11,239 bases of DNA, taken from Parcubacteria group bacterium RIFCSPHIGHO2_01_FULL_47_10b. GTDB taxonomy: Bacteria > Patescibacteriota > Minisyncoccia > 2-01-FULL-47-10. The stretch lies in the NCBI GenBank assembly GCA_001824325.1, contig MHXC01000044.1, positions 1 through 11,239 of the forward strand, read 5' to 3'. Below, in pieces: positions 1,735 through 8,784 of this stretch (its first letter is position 1; every line of letters starts with the position of its first letter). The position numbers and the translations under genes are program-made. Under the pieces are notes generated by a model. The model searched no databases and was not told where the DNA came from. It saw nothing but the letters and a program-made list of their open reading frames with translations.

Positions 1735-3315
1735 ATGAGCAACAACACAATAGTCGAAAACCTAAAAAAGCAGATTGAGAAGTTCCAGTCCGAAGTGAAG
1801 GCGGAGAAGGTGGGTCATGTCGTGGAAGTGTTCGACGGTATTGCGAAACTTTCCGGTCTTTCCGATATTAAGGCATCGGAAATGGTTACCTTCCCGAACG
1901 GCGAAATCGGTGTAACGCTTAACCTTGAGGAGGATTCTGTCGGTGTCATTATTCTCGGTGACTTCACGCACATTCACGAAGGTGATGAGGTCAAAGCTTC
2001 GGGACGCATTTTGGAAATCCCCGTCAGCGATAAACTCATCGGACGTGTGCTGAACGCTCTCGCGGAGCCCATAGACGGCAAGGGTGCGATTAAGTCCGAC
2101 CCTTCGACGGGTTCGACAAGCTCACCGAGGGCAGGCTCAGGGCAGGCAAGAACCTACCCGATTGAGAAAGTGGCTCCCGGTGTCGTTACAAGACAAGGCG
2201 TGGACCAAGCGGTACAGACCGGCATCAAGGCTATCGACGCCCTTATCCCAATCGGTCGCGGACAACGCGAGCTTATCATCGGCGACCGCCAGACCGGAAA
2301 GACCGCTATCGCCATCGACGCTATTTTGAACCAAAAATTTACCCGAACTGCGGAGCAGGGCGGGGGTCAAGAACCAATGATTTGCGTCTACGTTTCAATA
2401 GGTCAAAAAGATTCCAAGCTTCGCAAACTCCAGACGCGACTTGAGGATGGCGGCGCGATGGAGTACACCGTTATTGTTTCCGCCGGCTCGTCAGAAAGTT
2501 CCGCTCTTTCATATATCGCTCCTTACACGGGAGTTTCGATTGCCGAATACTTTATGGACCAAGGCAAAGACGTACTCATCATTTACGATGACCTTTCCAA
2601 GCATGCGGTAGCCTACCGAGAAATCTCTTTGCTTCTCCGTCGTCCTCCAGGCCGTGAAGCCTATCCCGGAGACGTCTTTTACCTCCACTCACGACTTCTT
2701 GAACGTGCTTGCCGTCGCAACGCAAAATATGGTGGTGGTTCCATTACCGCGCTCCCGATTATCGAAACCCAGGCCGGCGATGTGTCCGCCTACATTCCGA
2801 CCAACGTCATCTCCATTACCGACGGTCAGATTTTCCTTGAAACCGACCTGTTTTACAAAGGTGTTCGCCCAGCCGTAAACGTCGGACTTTCGGTGTCGCG
2901 TGTCGGTTCATCCGCACAAATTAAGGCTATGAAGAAAGTATCGGGAACGTTGAAGCTTGACCTTGCGCAATTCCGCGAACTTGAAGCCTTTTCACAATTT
3001 GGTTCAGACCTCGACGAGGGCACGAAGAAACAGTTGGAACGTGGCAAACGTGCGGTGGAAGTCTTGAAACAACCGCAATACGCGCCGGTCAAAGCCGAAC
3101 ACCAAGTCGTTACCCTCTACGCGCTTGTGAAGGGCTTTATGGATGACGTGCCTGTTGCCAAAATCAAGGAGTTTGAGGCGGGGTTGATTGACTACACCGA
3201 ATCCAACGCCAAGGTTTTCTTCAAAGATATCCGCGAGACCAAAATGTGGTCTGATGCCGGCGAGGCGGAGATTAAGAAAGTGATTGGGGAATTTAAGGGG
3301 AGTTTTAAGTTGTAA
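1735..3315 (+). CDS. atpA: F0F1 ATP synthase subunit alpha, with an in-frame repeat-derived insert
   Basis: Non-catalytic nucleotide-binding subunit of the F1 head. The 526-residue product has the N-terminal beta-barrel, the P-loop GDRQTGKT at residues 183-190, the Walker B region ([18 protein letters not shown]) and [10 protein letters not shown] with the arginine finger at Arg389. Its C-terminus ([14 protein letters not shown]) is also normal. The length exceeds E. coli alpha (513) mainly because residues 123-138 ([16 protein letters not shown]) interrupt the loop after [12 protein letters not shown], before [11 protein letters not shown]. The insert is a palindromic-repeat copy shared with atpD. 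VTRQGVDQ has Gly where Ser is usual. No Shine-Dalgarno precedes ATG 1735. Bases 3233-3281 recur exactly at 3938-3986 in a partial second copy of the gene end. Confidence 0.98.
2101..2145 (+). repeat. In-frame palindromic-type repeat inside atpA
   Basis: These 45 bases encode [15 protein letters not shown] and match, with a few differences, the 45-base insert at 7486-7530 in atpD. The shared core is GGTTCGACAAGCTCACCG. TTCGAC occurs twice. The sequence has no stop codon in the frame used, and it interrupts a well-conserved region of AtpA, so it was inserted into an existing gene. Confidence 0.85.
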
Positions 3316-3328
3316 GTTAAAAAGTTCT

Positions 3329-3354
3329 CCCCCGTCCTGAAGACGGAACGGGGG
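3329..3354. repeat. GC-rich hairpin just after atpA
   Basis: CCCCCGT (3329-3335) pairs with ACGGGGG (3348-3354). An alternative inner stem CCGTC/GACGG with loop CTGAA competes with it. It begins 14 bases after the atpA stop. No T tract follows, so it is more likely a REP-like palindrome or an mRNA 3'-end protector than an intrinsic terminator. Confidence 0.6.
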
Positions 3355-3367
3355 TAAGGCCGAAGCC

Positions 3368-3381
3368 ACTGTCCACACAGT
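3368..3381. promoter_or_regulatory. Small palindrome ACTGT-CCAC-ACAGT before the toxin gene
   Basis: A perfect 5-bp inverted repeat with a 4-base centre ends 7 bases before the ATG of the PemK-like gene. It could be an operator or a translation-blocking hairpin, but it is short enough to occur by chance. Confidence 0.3.
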
Positions 3382-3388
3382 ATATCAA

Positions 3389-3778
3389 ATGAAAAAAGAT
3401 TTTCAGAAATGGCATACCAAAAAGGAACTTCTGGACAAGGAGCCCAATCGTCCTCTCTTTGGTGAGCAGGAAGTCTGGTTTTGTTCGCTCGGTGCCAATG
3501 TAGGTTCCGAACAAAATGGTGTTGGAGATAAGTTTTTAGGACCAGTTGTCGTGGTCAGGAAGTTTAACAGCGAGATTTTTTGGGGCATCCCAACCACGAG
3601 AAAAAAGAGAAAGGGTAAATTTTATTTCTATTTTTCTTTTCATGAAAATGATTTTACAACCGCAATTTTATCCCAAATTCGCTTGATTGACGCCAAAAGA
3701 TTGGCATATAAAATAGGAATGATGCGAAATGCTGATTTCAAAGAAATGAAAAAACGCCTCACCTCATTTCTGAAGTAA
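3389..3778 (+). CDS. PemK/MazF-family toxin-like protein, without an evident antitoxin
   Basis: A 129-residue protein with the PemK/MazF endoribonuclease pattern. An N-terminal strand EVWFCSLGANVGSEQNG matches the family's [E]xWxxxxGxNxGxEQ region. It is followed by GPVVVVRKF, FWGIPTTRK and the C-terminal AILSQIRLIDAKRLAYKIG, which matches the family's SQxRxID...RLxxKxG. MazF proteins cut mRNA at short motifs and are normally neutralised by a neighbouring antitoxin. No reading frame fits one in the 73 bases between atpA and this gene, and the next gene is separated by an atpA fragment. The antitoxin may be encoded elsewhere or lost. It probably relies on readthrough from atpA. Family membership is confident; activity is inferred. 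Confidence 0.85.
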   Translation: MKKDFQKWHTKKELLDKEPNRPLFGEQEVWFCSLGANVGSEQNGVGDKFLGPVVVVRKFNSEIFWGIPTTRKKRKGKFYFYFSFHENDFTTAILSQIRLIDAKRLAYKIGMMRNADFKEMKKRLTSFLK

Positions 3779-3793
3779 AGCGTCTTTTCTTTT
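3751..3793 (+). terminator. Possible terminator overlapping the end of the PemK-like gene
   Basis: AAAACGC (3751-3757) can pair with GCGT (3780-3783) plus the following TTTT, and TCTTTTCTTTT lies at the base. The loop is long, about 22 nt, so efficiency is doubtful. Confidence 0.25.
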
Positions 3794-3796
3794 GAC

Positions 3797-3812
3797 CTCC
3801 GCCGAAGCGGAG
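3797..3812. repeat. Hairpin CTCCGC-CGAA-GCGGAG
   Basis: A perfect 6-bp GC-rich stem with a 4-base loop, 18 bases after the PemK-like gene. It resembles the short palindromic repeats elsewhere in the window. The rest of 3813-3912 shows no gene or recognisable signal. Confidence 0.5.
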
Positions 3813-3912
3813 TCGGGCTCAAGGCCATTTGTACCCATATCCTATCAAGCATGAAAAATAAAGTCAAGCGAAAAGTTGAAAACTGCCGAATAAAAGGTTA
3901 AAGTACGGCTAT

Positions 3913-4017
3913 AACAAAGAATTTTGCAAAGACATCTGCGAGACCAAAATGTGGTCTGATGCCGGCGAGGCGGAGATTAAGAAAGTCATCGCTGAATTTA
4001 AGACTACATTTAAATAG
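3913..4017 (+). pseudogene. Fragment: second copy of the 3' end of atpA
   Basis: Read in frame, these 35 codons end in [19 protein letters not shown], then VIAEFKTTFK and a stop. They align to the last residues of AtpA ([19 protein letters not shown], then [11 protein letters not shown]). Bases 3938-3986 are identical to 3233-3281 (49 nt), while both flanks differ. An in-frame stop lies just upstream, so it cannot be expressed as a protein of any size. The end reads like a genuine alternative AtpA C-terminus, not random decay. It is followed after 5 bases by the NUDIX gene, as an intact upstream operon gene would be. Confidence 0.9.
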
Positions 4018-4022
4018 CTGTA

Positions 4023-4427
4023 ATGGGAAAAAGTTATATAGACAAATTAGCGTTCATTGAGATAAAGGATCGAAAGGTTCTTGAAACTTGTAGCTATGGG
4101 AAGGACAAGTGGTATATTCCTGGTGGCAAGCGGGAGCAGAATGAATCTGACCAGGAAGCTCTCATTCGCGAAATGAAAGAAGAGTTGCTTGTAGATCTTA
4201 TTCCCGCTACGCTTGTTCACTACGGCACATTTGAAGCACAAGCTCATGGTAAACCAGAAGGGACTATTGTTCGCCTGACATGCTATACGGGCAAATATAA
4301 CGGAGTACTCTCTCCAAGCGCGGAGGTTGAAAAAATGGACTGGTTCGATTACTCAAGAAGAAATGAAACTTCACCCGTTGACCATCTGATTTTTGATGAT
4401 TTAAAGAAGAAAAATTTGATTGATTAA
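4023..4427 (+). CDS. NUDIX hydrolase
   Basis: A 134-residue NUDIX-fold pyrophosphohydrolase, a family that cleaves nucleoside diphosphate-linked substrates such as oxidised nucleotides, dNTPs or nucleotide sugars; the substrate cannot be told from sequence. The Nudix box spans residues 35-57: G35, E41 and R49-E50-M-K-E53-E54 are all present, supplying the metal-binding glutamates. The Gly near the end of the consensus box is Leu56 here. WYIPGGKRE precedes the box as usual. The gene lies between partial copies of atpA (5 bases upstream) and atpG (5 bases downstream). This implies it once sat directly between those genes. No own promoter or Shine-Dalgarno is visible. Confidence 0.93.
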   Translation: MGKSYIDKLAFIEIKDRKVLETCSYGKDKWYIPGGKREQNESDQEALIREMKEELLVDLIPATLVHYGTFEAQAHGKPEGTIVRLTCYTGKYNGVLSPSAEVEKMDWFDYSRRNETSPVDHLIFDDLKKKNLID

Positions 4428-4432
4428 ATTAT

Positions 4433-4561
4433 ATGGCAGGAAGCAAAGAGATAAAAAGACGCATCAAAAGCGTAAAAAGCACGAACCCCAGTAGCAGAAA
4501 TCGGAATTTCGCTACGGGGCGAGGAAAAATTACCAAAGCTATGGAATTGGTGGTAGCTTAG
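4433..4561 (+). pseudogene. Fragment: second copy of the 5' end of atpG, interrupted by a palindrome
   Basis: The ATG at 4433 starts MAGSKEIKRRIKSVKST, identical to the first 17 residues of AtpG (5889). Fourteen codons from a palindromic insert follow (4484-4525). The match then resumes with KITKAMELVVA and ends at a TAG (4559-4561). Identical runs are 4460-4485 with 5916-5941, and 4532-4553 with 5949-5970. The remaining roughly 260 residues of gamma are missing, so this is a remnant. A 42-residue peptide could still be translated because the insert keeps the frame. Confidence 0.92.
4486..4519. repeat. Palindromic insert within the atpG fragment
   Basis: CCCC-GTAGC-GAAAT pairs with ATTTC-GCTAC-GGGG around a CGGA loop: 14 base pairs with two bulged A on the left arm (4490, 4496). 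Relative to intact atpG, a net 39 nt is inserted, replacing the codon after Thr17 without changing frame. It differs in sequence from the repeat found in atpA and atpD. Confidence 0.8.
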
Positions 4562-4606
4562 CAAGGCAAGAAAAATTAGGATTTTCTGGAATTTTTTACA
4601 AGCAAA

Positions 4607-4615
4607 TGCTATACT
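4607..4615 (+). promoter_or_regulatory. Extended -10 promoter for the MazE-like gene (leaderless)
   Basis: TGC-TATACT is an extended -10 element. It ends 6 nt before ATG 4622, so transcription would begin at or next to the start codon. No good -35 box is present at 16-18 bp, which is acceptable for an extended -10. Confidence 0.6.
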
Positions 4616-4621
4616 GCGCGT

Positions 4622-4816
4622 ATGAATATGCTGACGAAACAAACGCGAATAAACATAAAAAACGCCTCTAAAGTCCTTGGGGTTGAAGAAGCGGATATTC
4701 TTGAACGTGCCTCTGTGTTTTATCTTGATGCTATCCAAAAGGATATAGAACTGAAAAAGGAATTTGCCTTTTGGGATTATTTGAGCGATGAGGCACTGGC
4801 GAAGAGCCGACTGTAG
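4622..4816 (+). CDS. Putative antitoxin of a MazEF-like pair
   Basis: A 64-residue acidic/basic protein directly upstream of a PemK/MazF toxin gene, with stop and start three bases apart. TRINIKNASKVLG followed by two predicted helices (VEEADILERASVFYLDAI) is compatible with a ribbon-helix-helix DNA-binding fold. The charged tail with FWDYLSDEALAKSRL resembles the disordered toxin-binding tail of antitoxins. The assignment rests mostly on position and size. It is probably expressed from its own leaderless promoter (4607-4615) and may repress it, as such antitoxins commonly do; no operator repeat is obvious. Confidence 0.75.
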   Translation: MNMLTKQTRINIKNASKVLGVEEADILERASVFYLDAIQKDIELKKEFAFWDYLSDEALAKSRL

Positions 4817-4819
4817 ACC

Positions 4820-5143
4820 ATGAAAAAGGGGGGAATTTGGGTAATTGATTCCGGAGATTCGAGTGGACATGAGCAGTCGGGTATACGGCCGGCTATTGTT
4901 TTCTCTGGTGTTGTGGCGGGACTGGTTATGGTTGTGCCACTCACTTCAAATAGTAGAGCTTTACGCTTTGCGCACACGGTTCAACTCTCGCCAAACGCCT
5001 CAAATGGTTTAACCGCGCCATCTACGGCGCTTGTCTTTCAACTACGGGCAATTGATGTGAAAAGATTAGAAAAGAAAATTGGCTCCTCGACGGGAGAAAT
5101 GAAACTGCTGAACAAGGAGATAAGAAAGATGTTACGCGTCTAG
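4820..5143 (+). CDS. PemK/MazF-family toxin of a MazEF-like pair
   Basis: A 107-residue MazF-like endoribonuclease, which in this family cuts mRNA at short sequence motifs and stops growth when freed from its antitoxin. Family features run through the whole length: GGIWVIDSGDSSGHEQSGIRP (GxxWxxD...GxEQxGxRP), PAIVFS, VVPLTSN, HTVQL, NGLTAPSTALVFQLRAIDVKRL and KKIG. Length and domain coverage are normal, so it looks intact. It follows the putative antitoxin by three bases and shares its promoter. It is different from the PemK-like gene at 3389, so it is probably not a local duplicate. Its stop codon lies inside a 31-base palindrome. Confidence 0.92.
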   Translation: MKKGGIWVIDSGDSSGHEQSGIRPAIVFSGVVAGLVMVVPLTSNSRALRFAHTVQLSPNASNGLTAPSTALVFQLRAIDVKRLEKKIGSSTGEMKLLNKEIRKMLRV

Positions 5144-5171
5144 TTATGCAACACCCCGTGTTGCATAACTA
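5141..5171. repeat. Perfect 14-bp inverted repeat overlapping the toxin stop codon
   Basis: TAGTTATGCAACAC (5141-5154) and GTGTTGCATAACTA (5158-5171) are exact reverse complements around CCC, and the left arm contains the TAG stop of the MazF-like gene. The following AAAAATT is not a + strand T tract. It could protect the mRNA 3' end, act as a terminator without a U tail, or mark a repeat or recombination site between the two toxin-antitoxin modules. Confidence 0.75.
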
Positions 5172-5175
5172 AAAA

Positions 5176-5204
5176 TTGGTAAAGTATGATAAAAATGATA
5201 AAAT
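5176..5204 (+). promoter_or_regulatory. Promoter of mntA (leaderless)
   Basis: A -35 element TTGGTA (5176-5181), a 17-bp spacer and an extended -10 TGA-TAAAAT (TAAAAT at 5199-5204). The -10 ends exactly 6 nt before ATG 5211, predicting a leaderless mRNA. Confidence 0.7.
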
Positions 5205-5210
5205 CACTTT

Positions 5211-5516
5211 ATGTCAACGGATTTAGAAACAATCAAGCGGAAAATCGCTGAAAATAAGGAGTATTTGCTGAAAACCTATGGCGTGGAAGAAATAGGCGTG
5301 TTCGGCTCGTTCGCGCGGGGAGATCAAAACGCAGAGAGCGATATTGATATTTCAGTTGAATTGAATCACGACAAAGTACCCGTAGGGCTTTTTGAATTCG
5401 CCGGTATGCAGTTTTACTTGGAAGACCTGTTGGGACGAAAAGTCGATTTAGTGACAAAAACCGGAATCAAACCGATGATTAAAGATAGAATTTTAAGCCA
5501 ACTGGTTATTGTATGA
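5211..5516 (+). CDS. mntA: MntA-like minimal nucleotidyltransferase antitoxin
   Basis: A 101-residue minimal nucleotidyltransferase of the polymerase-beta superfamily. It carries the motif GSX10DXD: Gly32-Ser33, Asp44 and Asp46, with Asp79 in GRKVDLV as the third metal ligand. In the characterised MntA-HepT system the MntA antitoxin inactivates the HEPN toxin HepT by adding AMP to a tyrosine in its RX4HXY motif. The downstream gene overlaps by four bases (ATGA at 5513-5516) and encodes a HEPN protein with exactly that motif. The gene has its own promoter and looks intact. Function is inferred from motifs and pairing. Confidence 0.93.
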   Translation: MSTDLETIKRKIAENKEYLLKTYGVEEIGVFGSFARGDQNAESDIDISVELNHDKVPVGLFEFAGMQFYLEDLLGRKVDLVTKTGIKPMIKDRILSQLVIV

Positions 5517-5861
5517 GTGAAAAAAGGAGTGTACAACTATTTATTCAAGATGTTTTGGACGCCATCGAAACAATCAATGGCTATGTTTCCGATATGACAA
5601 GCGGAAAGGAGTTAAAAAGCGATAAAAAAAACATATGATGCGGTGCTGATGAATTTTATTATCATCGGCGAAGCAGTCAAAAATATCTACGAGGAAGTTC
5701 GCGAAAACTATCCGAAAGTGGAATGGAGAAAAATCATGGCGATGCGAAATCTTCTGGCTCATGAGTACTGGGGAGTGGATGAAAAAGTCGTGTGGAGCGC
5801 GATACGGAAAAATTTGCCGCAGTTAAAAGAAATTATTTTGAACGTCAAAAACAGTTTATAA
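5513..5861 (+). pseudogene. hepT: HepT-like HEPN toxin, frameshifted at an A8 run
   Basis: ATG 5513 overlaps the mntA stop. The frame runs 41 codons and ends at TGA 5636-5638, straight after eight A (5624-5631). Removing one A joins it to the frame ending at TAA 5859-5861, giving about 115 residues, a normal HEPN length. The restored protein reads SDKKTYDAVLMNFIIIGEAV and has the RX4HXY motif RNLLAHEY (Arg78, His83, Tyr85), the RNase site and AMP-accepting tyrosine of HepT. Everything else is well preserved, so the shift is recent, reversible by slippage, bypassed, or a sequencing error in a homopolymer. As written, the toxin is inactive. Confidence 0.88.
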
Positions 5862-5862
5862 T
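5857..5862 (+). promoter_or_regulatory. Possible -10 element upstream of atpG
   Basis: A consensus TATAAT overlaps the stop codon of hepT, 26 nt before ATG 5889. No -35 element sits at the right distance and no TG extension precedes it, so it may be chance. If real, it would let atpG be expressed independently of readthrough across the inserted genes. Confidence 0.25.
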
Positions 5863-5888
5863 CCTGAATCTAACATCTACCAGATACC

Positions 5889-6806
5889 ATGGCTGGATCT
5901 AAGGAAATAAAAAGGCGCATCAAAAGCGTAAAAAGCACGAAGAAAATCACCAAAGCTATGGAATTGGTGGCGGCTTCGAAGATGAAACGCGCTGTGGCGT
6001 CTACGATTGCCTCGCGTCTGTATGCCGAATATTCGTGGGAGGTTTTGGTTTCTATCGGCAAGAATGTGGAGGAAATCACGCATCCATTGTTCACAGAACG
6101 TGGAACACGGAACATTCTTTTGATACTTATAACATCCAACCGAGGTCTTTGCGGAGCGTACAATTCGCAGGTTATTAAGAAAACGTTGGCATTGCTTCGC
6201 AAGAAAAACGGCAACGCTAACATCGACATTATAACTGTCGGCAAGAAGGGGGACGTGGCAATGCGCCGAATCGGTCAAAAGATTATCGCCTCCTTTACGG
6301 ACTTACCGGCCAACATTTCTCTTGGAGATGTGTTGCCTATTTCCAAACTTGCCATTCAGGAGTTTACTGCCGGTAATTATGATACAGTGCTGGTAGCTTA
6401 TACCGACTTCGTATCGGCAATGTCGCAGGTTCCAAACATCAAACAAGTCGTTCCGGTTTCTAAAACGGACCTTAAGGATTTAATAAGCGACCTTAGCGTG
6501 CCAACATTGGAAGTCAGGGTTCCTCCCGACGCCGGAAAGGAAACAAGTATAAATTATTTAATTGAGGGCGATAAGAATAACCTGTTAGGTTCTCTCGCTG
6601 AAAAGCTCGTCAGAATGCAAATCTACCAAATGCTTCTTGAGTCAAACGCTTCCGAGCAATCTTCCCGAATGGTCGCGATGAAGAACGCCAGTGAAGCCGC
6701 CGGAGAAATGATAGAAGACCTGACACTGGTATTTAACAAGGCAAGACAAGCAAACATCACGCAGGAAATATCGGAAATTAGCGCGGGGATGGCGTCGGTG
6801 AGCTGA
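5889..6806 (+). CDS. atpG: F0F1 ATP synthase subunit gamma
   Basis: Central rotor shaft of F1, turning inside the alpha3beta3 head and coupling it to the c ring. The 305-residue product is slightly longer than E. coli gamma (287) and complete. The N-terminal helix MAGSKEIKRRIKSVKSTKKITKAMELVAASKM and the C-terminal helix FNKARQANITQEISEISAGMASV together form the coiled-coil shaft, with a Rossmann-like middle (LLILITSNRGLCGAYN) between them. The ATG is confirmed by the conserved N-terminus; no Shine-Dalgarno is seen. It is separated from atpA by about 2.6 kb of accessory genes. A truncated copy of its first 28 or so codons lies at 4433-4561. Confidence 0.97.
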   Translation: MAGSKEIKRRIKSVKSTKKITKAMELVAASKMKRAVASTIASRLYAEYSWEVLVSIGKNVEEITHPLFTERGTRNILLILITSNRGLCGAYNSQVIKKTLALLRKKNGNANIDIITVGKKGDVAMRRIGQKIIASFTDLPANISLGDVLPISKLAIQEFTAGNYDTVLVAYTDFVSAMSQVPNIKQVVPVSKTDLKDLISDLSVPTLEVRVPPDAGKETSINYLIEGDKNNLLGSLAEKLVRMQIYQMLLESNASEQSSRMVAMKNASEAAGEMIEDLTLVFNKARQANITQEISEISAGMASVS

Positions 6807-6836
6807 AAGTCCCTAAAGTCATCAAGTCTAAAAGCC

Positions 6837-7070
6837 ATGGATATTGTTTTCAGCCGACACGCAAAACTGAAAATCGTACAGAGAAAGATACCGATGCGGG
6901 CTGTAATTGCGGTAGTAAGGTTTCCGGAGTTTAGAGCAGATGGGTACAATCCTCGAGAAGAACTCTATAAGAAATTCAGGAATATTTATTTGAAAGTAGT
7001 GATAAAACGAAAGCGAAATAAAATTATTGTCATTACTACCCATTTGGTTGCGAAAGTGAAAAATAACTGA
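6837..7070 (+). CDS. DUF4258 protein, putative toxin-like partner of the DUF2283 gene
   Basis: A small basic protein (77 residues) with the DUF4258 pattern: FSRHAKLKIVQRKIP near the start, a Pro/Glu-containing middle (VRFPEF, Arg-rich), then YLKVVIKRKRNKIIVITTHLV. The His in SRHAK and the Lys/Arg-rich strands are the conserved part of the family. No biochemical activity is established here. DUF4258 genes often sit next to DUF2283 genes, and that pairing is widely regarded as a possible toxin-antitoxin module. It starts 30 bases after atpG with no promoter of its own, so it is probably expressed by readthrough from the operon. Its TGA stop overlaps the extended -10 of the next gene. Confidence 0.8.
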   Translation: MDIVFSRHAKLKIVQRKIPMRAVIAVVRFPEFRADGYNPREELYKKFRNIYLKVVIKRKRNKIIVITTHLVAKVKNN

Positions 7071-7076
7071 TAAAAT
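7048..7076 (+). promoter_or_regulatory. Promoter of the DUF2283 gene (leaderless)
   Basis: TTGCGA (7048-7053), a 17-bp spacer and TGA-TAAAAT (TAAAAT at 7071-7076). The -10 is 6 nt before ATG 7083, the same geometry as at 4622 and 5211. The element lies within the end of the DUF4258 gene. Confidence 0.65.
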
Positions 7077-7082
7077 CGCATT

Positions 7083-7307
7083 ATGAAGATTACATACGAC
7101 AAAGAAGTGGACGCCCTCAATGTATCCTTGCGTCCCGGCATAGTAGCAAAAACTCTGGAAATCTCCCCCGAGATTATGTTGGACATGGATAAAAACGGCA
7201 ATCCTCTCTTCCTTGAAATTATCGGCGCGAGCGAAAAAATCGGCAAAAAGAATTTTGGTAAAGTCATCGTGGGGAAAAGATTCCTTAATCTTCCATCGTT
7301 TGCTTAA
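7083..7307 (+). CDS. DUF2283 protein, putative antitoxin-like partner
   Basis: A 74-residue protein with the clear DUF2283 pattern: MKITYDKEVDALNVSL at the N-terminus and a central ISPEIMLDMDKNGNPLFLEIIGAS, the family's D.D..G...GIEI.xAS-like core. The molecular role is unknown; proximity to DUF4258 suggests an antitoxin or regulator. It starts 12 bases after the DUF4258 stop and has its own promoter. It could therefore be made in excess of its upstream partner, as expected for an antitoxin encoded second. The 79 bases to atpD hold only A/T-rich sequence with a weak CTTCA-GGT-TTGAAG hairpin (about 7343-7355). Confidence 0.85.
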   Translation: MKITYDKEVDALNVSLRPGIVAKTLEISPEIMLDMDKNGNPLFLEIIGASEKIGKKNFGKVIVGKRFLNLPSFA

Positions 7308-7380
7308 TAACAAAGACGGTCAGCATAAAAGGCCGCAAAACAGCGACCCCTCCTTCAGGTTTGAAGAAAAATTTTAATAA

Positions 7381-8784
<1,404 letters not shown>

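Follow-up and report, generated by a model that had tools for sequence, protein, structure and literature searches.

Between its intact atpA and atpG genes, the atp operon analysed here carries a cut copy of the end of atpA and a cut copy of the start of atpG, both adjoining toxin-antitoxin genes. The explanation we favour, at a probability of roughly 0.65, is that the modules entered by recombination, each bringing a homologous gene end, while the original ends were pushed away as fragments. The operon lies in a stretch of 11,239 nucleotides (the window) from a Patescibacterium, whose AtpA is 74–81% identical to that of nine loci with titles naming Nomurabacteria, Parcubacteria, Paceibacterota or unnamed bacteria.

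All features of the window described below lie on the forward (+) strand. Intact atpA (1735–3315), the tail of which (about 3280–3315) resembles a replacement end, is followed by a leader with a conserved hairpin motif (3316–3388), a PemK/MazF-like toxin gene (3389–3778) and a segment (3785–3912) that contains a downstream hairpin motif, recognised by alignment, and a pair of promoter-like hexamers. Then come the displaced atpA 3′ end (3915–4017, with its stop codon at 4015–4017), a NUDIX hydrolase gene (4023–4427; PF00293, 38.4 bits against a cut-off of 21.1) and the displaced atpG 5′ end (4433–4561), recognised by its similarity to the intact atpG start. A MazE-like antitoxin gene (4622–4816, named by position only), a MazF toxin gene (4820–5143), an MntA-like antitoxin gene (5211–5516) and a HepT-like toxin gene split in frame (5513–5861, in the pieces 5513–5638 and 5643–5861) lead up to intact atpG (5889–6806), whose first codons differ silently from those of the fragment. 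An earlier note on this DNA had described a compact unit of cut atpA end, 5 nt, NUDIX gene, 5 nt and cut atpG start, with intact and differing versions of both genes outside it; its coordinates and description hold, as does the difference between the copies (84% identity for atpA, 87% and 91% for two parts of atpG). It missed a 39-nt hairpin (4486–4524, boundaries approximate) that breaks the atpG fragment at codon 17 and is absent from the intact gene. When the bin was searched with the DNA of 3905–4565, four matches were returned, all on the window's contig and corresponding to this place and the two intact genes; Rfam gave no matches across 3200–6000. Elsewhere in the operon, an 84% repeat over 44 nt is found inside atpA (2101–2144) and inside atpD (7486–7529), in frame in both, and a repeat of the 2101–2144 type is lacking from AtpA of G306, G307, G155, G196 and G270.

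Ten relatives from three families have an atp operon of the window's type (G293, G300, G304, G306 and G307; G135, G196 and G270; G155 and G077), and five of them (G300, G306, G307, G135 and G155) carry gene-end fragments between atpA and atpG. In G293, G304 and G077 the spacing between atpA and atpG is 7, 7 and 106 nt, respectively, G293 and G304 serving as empty sites. In G196 and G270 the junction holds other genes, and no fragment was found there. G306 reads atpA, NUDIX, atpG fragment, PemK, atpG, with no insertion on the atpA side. In G300 the order is atpA, a broken PemK gene, two ORFs, an atpG fragment with the same hairpin as in the window, MazEF, MntA, HepT and atpG, and this genome is collinear with window positions 4433–8771 at 82.6% by blastn. 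G307 has atpA, another gene, an atpG fragment, MazEF, a further atpG start fragment (identified by eye and bearing a copy of the hairpin), PemK and atpG, while G135 has atpA, PemK, an atpA fragment, three ORFs, an atpG fragment, MntA-HepT and atpG. G155 shows atpA, a gene, an atpG fragment, HicBA, an atpA fragment, a gene and atpG, and further downstream an atpC 5′ fragment, HicBA and atpC. The insertions occur separately, on the right only in G306 and G307 and on both sides in G135, and each is seen alone in relatives; this supports the proposal of the earlier note that a PemK-like gene at the atpA 3′ end and MazEF/MntA-HepT at the atpG 5′ end arrived in two separate insertions. PemK also follows atpA in G270 and G300, there with no atpA fragment. 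Fragments adjoining toxin-antitoxin genes recur in relatives at atpA, atpG, atpC and an epimerase gene. A wider survey covered 83 atp loci with both genes in view (loci rather than genomes, some genomes possibly counted twice, and G135, G155 and G270 absent since atpG lies outside those loci). The two genes are less than 200 nt apart in 77 of them, and the six with wider gaps (409–947 nt, one being G196) hold no gene-end fragment. The trait at the atpA-atpG junction was thus seen only in the near kin of the window, the nearest species of which the AtpD plus AtpC tree was too weak to order.

The atpA fragment gives the clearest sign of where the ends belong. Positions 3915–4013 match the end of intact atpA (3210–3308) at 84% identity, with 49 consecutive identical nucleotides, and the fragment alone, searched against the whole bin, has an E value of 9.5e-10, beyond chance. 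The divergence is uneven, with 45 of 45 nt identical in the core and 18 of 27 in the tail. Over these 27 nt, on which the tail comparison rests, the intact gene of the window agrees at 25 positions with the G135 fragment and with G155 atpA, compared with 18 in G300, 20 in G306, 19 in G307, 22 in G293 and 18 in G304, the members of its own family. The tail of the window fragment is nearest to G196 (22/27) and G306 (21/27). In G135 the window-like tail sits on the fragment, the intact atpA of that genome matching at 18 of 27. These affinities to other families support the view that the atpA tail of the window is a replacement end, a view that holds only if such a tail is native in the lineage of G135.

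The fragments also appear to record an older gene order. In G306 an intact atpA is followed by the same NUDIX gene (87% identical to that of the window) and then by an atpG start, and this segment aligns in one continuous stretch with window positions 3927–4485 at 82.6% over 559 nt, so that both the atpA-NUDIX and the NUDIX-atpG junctions of the window fragments are matched in a genome where atpA is complete. Among 13 family genomes searched, G306 is the only one with the NUDIX gene at high identity, and there it lies at the atpA-atpG place. G306 is therefore a relative of the kind that the earlier note's fossil order atpA-NUDIX-atpG called for. Between the window and G306 the NUDIX gene has a pS of 0.563 compared with 0.661 for the atp genes, a difference that is not significant (P = 0.07), and the gene could be as old as the split of the two species. 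Against the favoured explanation, G300, the nearest relative, has neither the atpA fragment nor the NUDIX gene. For the substrate class of the NUDIX protein, 11 NCBIfam hits were obtained, all below their cut-offs. The 134-aa protein itself drew 2972 hits from the protein collection. Of these, the best 120 are at 74–89% identity, and the few named ones among them come from several Patescibacteria groups and one Bacteroidetes MAG; the protein is unusually conserved and apparently mobile.

The same segment can be read in the opposite direction, namely that the intact genes are native and that the middle, from atpA end through NUDIX to atpG start, was imported from a G306-like relative, either between existing modules or into the junction. 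The earlier note had offered such an import as its second explanation. In its favour, the 82.6% identity to G306 exceeds that of the blastn pieces of atpA (75.5%), atpG (71.5%) and atpC (74.0%), with atpD at 80.3%, and the many NUDIX proteins at 74–89% identity suggest that the gene may be mobile. It is the intact atpA tail, however, and not the fragment, that has the affinity to other families; at silent sites the NUDIX gene and the atp genes do not differ significantly in divergence; and fragment-flanked insertions also occur in relatives with other genes in the middle. We consider the import unlikely, and of the two explanations in the earlier note it is the weaker.

The atpG fragment speaks to how the two copies of a gene end came to differ. 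Its identity to intact atpG is 87% across the initial 53 nt and 91% across a stretch of 34 nt close to the end of the fragment. The fragment of G300 has the same hairpin insert, and that of G307 has another insert at the same codon; copies of the window's insert with at most 2 mismatches number one each in G000 (the window's own bin), G300, G307 and G135, and none in G306, G293, G304 and G155. In the window, G300 and G307 alike, fragment and intact gene encode the same peptide in the first 17 codons and differ by silent changes only, a pattern that looks like the divergence of functioning genes rather than of neutral duplicates. The keeping of the 4433–4485 peptide in these three genomes could mean that the fragment has exchanged sequence with the intact gene repeatedly, or that it has a use in its own right. 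As to direction, the fragment is nearer than the intact start to the uninterrupted genes of G293 and G304 in G300 (42 and 42 against 38 and 38 of 51 nt) and in G307 (48 and 50 against 45 and 46 of 51). In G135 the fragment is nearer in four of six comparisons, with one tie; in G155 the copies are identical over the 51 nt compared; and G306 shows the opposite, its intact start being nearer to all five other relatives. For the window itself, compared with six relatives, the fragment is nearer in three, the intact start in two and one is tied, which gives no direction. The claim of imported replacement ends is consequently supported for atpA, the tail being closest to other families, and for atpG in G300 and G307, while for the window's own atpG start the evidence is mixed.

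Insertion with a long target duplication of about 100 bp, the copies of which later diverged by mutation, would produce the same geometry, in which direct repeats of about 100 nt enclose an addictive module and relatives have empty sites. Divergence by mutation does not readily yield a 45/45-nt atpA core beside an 18/27 tail, and silent-only differences are not expected in the atpG start of a neutral fragment; we judge this explanation improbable. Neutral decay of a simple duplicate is disfavoured by the same silent-only differences. Tandem duplication of the atpA-atpG junction predicts the order A-G′-A′-G (primes marking fragments) and is rejected for the window because the order there is A-A′-G′-G; the order A-G′-A′-G does occur in G155, with HicBA between G′ and A′.

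The window's contig, C44, belongs to a metagenome bin, G000, that holds a second and distant atp operon on contig C66, with an AtpA 60% identical to that of the window and, in its listing, no atpA or atpG fragment. The only rplB match of the bin is 48% identical to G300 rplB, while the window AtpA is 93% identical to that of G300 over 338 codons, and since these relations disagree the window contig is probably mis-binned; the structure would be unaffected, because relatives carry the same. That the fragments are a rearrangement or assembly artefact, as the second operon and the distant rplB might suggest, is hardly credible given the collinearity of the right half in G300, the presence of both fragments in G135 and the implausibility of an error shared across separate assemblies.

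Returning to entry by recombination, silent sites indicate which genes have moved. Between the window and G307, MazEF has a pS of 0.441 compared with 0.685 for atpA plus atpG (P = 0.0005); between the window and G135, MntA has 0.400 compared with 0.688 for the atp genes (0 of 2000 resamples); and between the window and G300, MazEF, MntA and two DUF genes together have 0.439 compared with 0.566 (P = 0.001). Since their silent sites are less diverged than those of the atp genes, the toxin-antitoxin modules at atpG appear to have moved between species into the same place. The atpG gene is also low between the window and G300 (0.441 compared with 0.566, P = 0.0025), as if recombination had reached into it. 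PemK, compared between the window and G135, is not significantly lower (0.603 compared with 0.688, P = 0.12). The DUF4258 and DUF2283 genes at 6837–7307, between atpG and atpD, are common to the window and G300, and DUF4258 shows much less silent divergence between the two (Ks 0.35) than atpA, atpD and atpC (1.0–1.1).

The modules themselves are assigned by profile. Both the PemK-like and the MazF genes pass the PF02452 cut-off (31.2 and 67.2 bits against 23.1), which predicts their toxin class. The MazE-like gene has no Pfam or NCBIfam match and is 98% identical to its counterpart in G300 and 88% to that in G307. MntA (PF01909; NF047752 at 47.7 bits, with a cut-off of 60) and HepT (PF01934, on the second piece) are below the NCBIfam curated cut-offs, and the HepT-like frame that is split in the window is open in G300 and G135. 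The PemK-like protein is closest to the copy of G135 (84%), the genome whose atpA fragment the intact atpA tail of the window also matches, which speaks for the favoured explanation; it is 39–58% identical to the copies of G300 (part), G306, G307 and G270. No recognised antitoxin gene adjoins the PemK-like gene in the window, and an RNA part to this module is for this reason conceivable. A hairpin motif, consisting of a GC-rich stem followed by approximately GGCCGAAGCC and then by TGT and an AT-rich end, stands on both sides of the gene (3316–3388 and 3785–3852), and similar motifs are found before or after the PemK-like genes of G270, G300, G306, G307 and G135. The promoter-like hexamers at 3876–3904 match the consensus at 9 of 12 positions, which is no proof of function, and by eye a similar stretch is present in G135 and G270.

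Gene-end fragments are also found beyond the atp operon. In 1.08 Mb of sequence outside the atp loci of G300, G155 and G135, we scanned 1031 ORFs, each 90 aa or longer, for partial copies of their own ends within 4 kb, counting as insertion-type a start fragment upstream or an end fragment downstream on the same strand. There were 23 partial copies, 19 of which, on 16 genes, had the insertion-type configuration; the same ORFs searched against flanks taken from a different gene in their own genome gave one hit, not insertion-type. Control regions, which were atp neighbourhoods and not random stretches, gave no hits in 835 ORFs of non-Patescibacteria and three in 479 ORFs of other Patescibacteria, two of them insertion-type, and with swapped flanks six and four hits, respectively, none insertion-type and several between related atp or upp-like genes. 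For the 19 hits, Fisher P values are 1.7e-5 against non-Patescibacteria, 3.5e-6 against swapped flanks and 0.03 against other Patescibacteria. On inspection, seven hits on four genes (L200, L207, L212 and L232) proved to be repeats or related genes, and for the 12 genes that remain the values are 0.0008, 0.0005 and 0.25. The excess over chance stands, but there is no significant difference from other Patescibacteria. In G155 (L200:1496–4395) a leader of about 57 nt is, by eye, repeated almost identically before three genes that resemble a PilC-type, a PilT-type and a response-regulator gene.

Among the 12 genes is the epimerase-like gene of G135, whose 3′ fragment follows BrnT- and CopG-type genes, both slightly below their cut-offs (32.7 against 34.5 bits and 25.4 against 28). 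A 123-aa ORF without a family separates G300 trmD from its 5′ fragment, a PD-(D/E)XK nuclease gene and a 208-aa ORF lie between a UvrD-like gene and its fragment, one further gene has an NYN-domain gene between, and others have unnamed ORFs. In five of the 12 the spacers are 18–245 nt, and those of the 3′ fragments of G300 RNase J, RuvB and rplB (18–77 nt) contain no gene; the names trmD, RNase J, RuvB, rplB and UvrD-like were assigned from sequence, without a family search. At trmD and RNase J no native or foreign direction could be read by eye, the relatives differing at most silent sites, and the intact trmD start of G300 resembles the family more than the fragment does (by eye and uncounted), which counts against the favoured explanation.

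The shape of the joint is informative in the clearest copies. In seven pairs chosen as such (window, G135 and G300 atpG; G155 atpC; G300 trmD; window atpA; G135 epimerase), identity is higher in the half adjoining the break than in the terminal half in 7/7 (sign test 0.016), with longest identical runs of 26, 26, 28, 28, 30, 49 and 47 nt. Among 17 alignments, no long identical run occurs in the diverged copies of RNase J, RuvB, rplB, the UvrD-like gene and the atpA genes of G135 and G155, and a few pairs are near-identical throughout; G155 atpG is identical over its fragment. The sequence after the fragment differs between genomes.

These features can be joined into a sequence of events. An older junction, atpA-NUDIX-atpG, would be preserved at 3927–4485; the 3′ end of atpA would later have received a PemK-like module, and the 5′ end of atpG a MazEF module (plus MntA-HepT). 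With each module a gene end from a related lineage would arrive and complete the interrupted gene, displacing the native end as a fragment that presumably has no function of its own. We infer that entry took place by recombination at a short identical stretch common to donor and recipient, 26–49 nt in the best cases, by which the imported end would be joined to the native body and the gene would stay whole. This length fits the minimum needed for homologous recombination. The route may have been one crossover with circular DNA that carried module and gene end, or one-ended recombination of transforming DNA; alternatively, the donor may have been an allele already bearing both repeats. Addictiveness of the module would aid its retention. 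Natural transformation has been shown for Saccharibacteria (PMC10633639) and is stated as likely for Patescibacteria in general (PMC12455944).

More tentatively, and with rather less than even odds, the toxin-antitoxin module, the spare gene end and the short identical core may together form a mobile unit that needs no recombinase of its own. Recombination between the two cores would free a circle of module and gene end and restore the donor gene; a single crossover would then integrate this circle at the same gene in another species, where the end it carries would complete that gene. If this is true, the essential gene serves as landing site and as insurance at once, and addictiveness keeps the module there.

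The case bears on how toxin-antitoxin modules could move without a transposon or integrase. The scars described here, found in uncultured Patescibacteria within essential operons and for several module types, display the old end, the imported end and the joint side by side, and the route proposed under entry by recombination can be tested by strain comparison and simple transformation assays. Furthermore, such genomes can have mosaic gene ends and mosaic operon junctions, with consequences for trees and annotation. In the literature on toxin-antitoxin systems with target duplication or direct repeats, and on toxin-antitoxin systems, gene fragments and transformation in Patescibacteria and the candidate phyla radiation, the pattern is undescribed among the matches listed; publication elsewhere is possible.

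The pattern shares features with four known kinds of system. First, integrative elements such as prophage e14 in icd restore the gene end that they interrupt. There, and on our reading here as well, an imported end completes the gene, the original end lies at the far side and the core is identical; here, in contrast, there are several unrelated target genes and cores, and no integrase or recombinase family was matched when ten ORFs of the window and ten inserted ORFs from relatives were scanned with Pfam. Second, restriction-modification genes have been described as inserting with a long target duplication on the order of 100 bp (PMC3874152, PMC1643837; Nobusato et al. 2000, as given in citing papers). 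The likeness is that an addictive pair is flanked on both sides by direct repeats of about 100 nt while the target gene is complete, the target repeats around the modules here being 99 nt at atpA and 53 plus 34 nt at atpG. The cargo here, however, is toxin-antitoxin, and the repeats consist of an identical stretch and a silently diverged end, which points to a donor and not to duplication alone. Third, in homology-facilitated illegitimate recombination short homology anchors foreign DNA (PMC3240628), and stacked displacement by one-sided homology has been proposed for immunity gene arrays (PMC5361080). Displaced pieces and stacked arrays are common to both, as in G307 with its two atpG start fragments, whereas at the sites described here every interrupted gene is complete and, in the selected pairs, it is the break side of the fragment that holds the identical stretch. 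Finally, the modules match the profiles of known toxin-antitoxin systems (PemK/MazF, MntA-HepT, HicBA, BrnT-CopG), some below the curated cut-off, but they lie here between cut and intact copies of a gene end in an essential operon. What would be new relative to the second and third of these kinds, judging from the sequence comparisons, is that the end of an essential gene appears to have been replaced by a diverged one.
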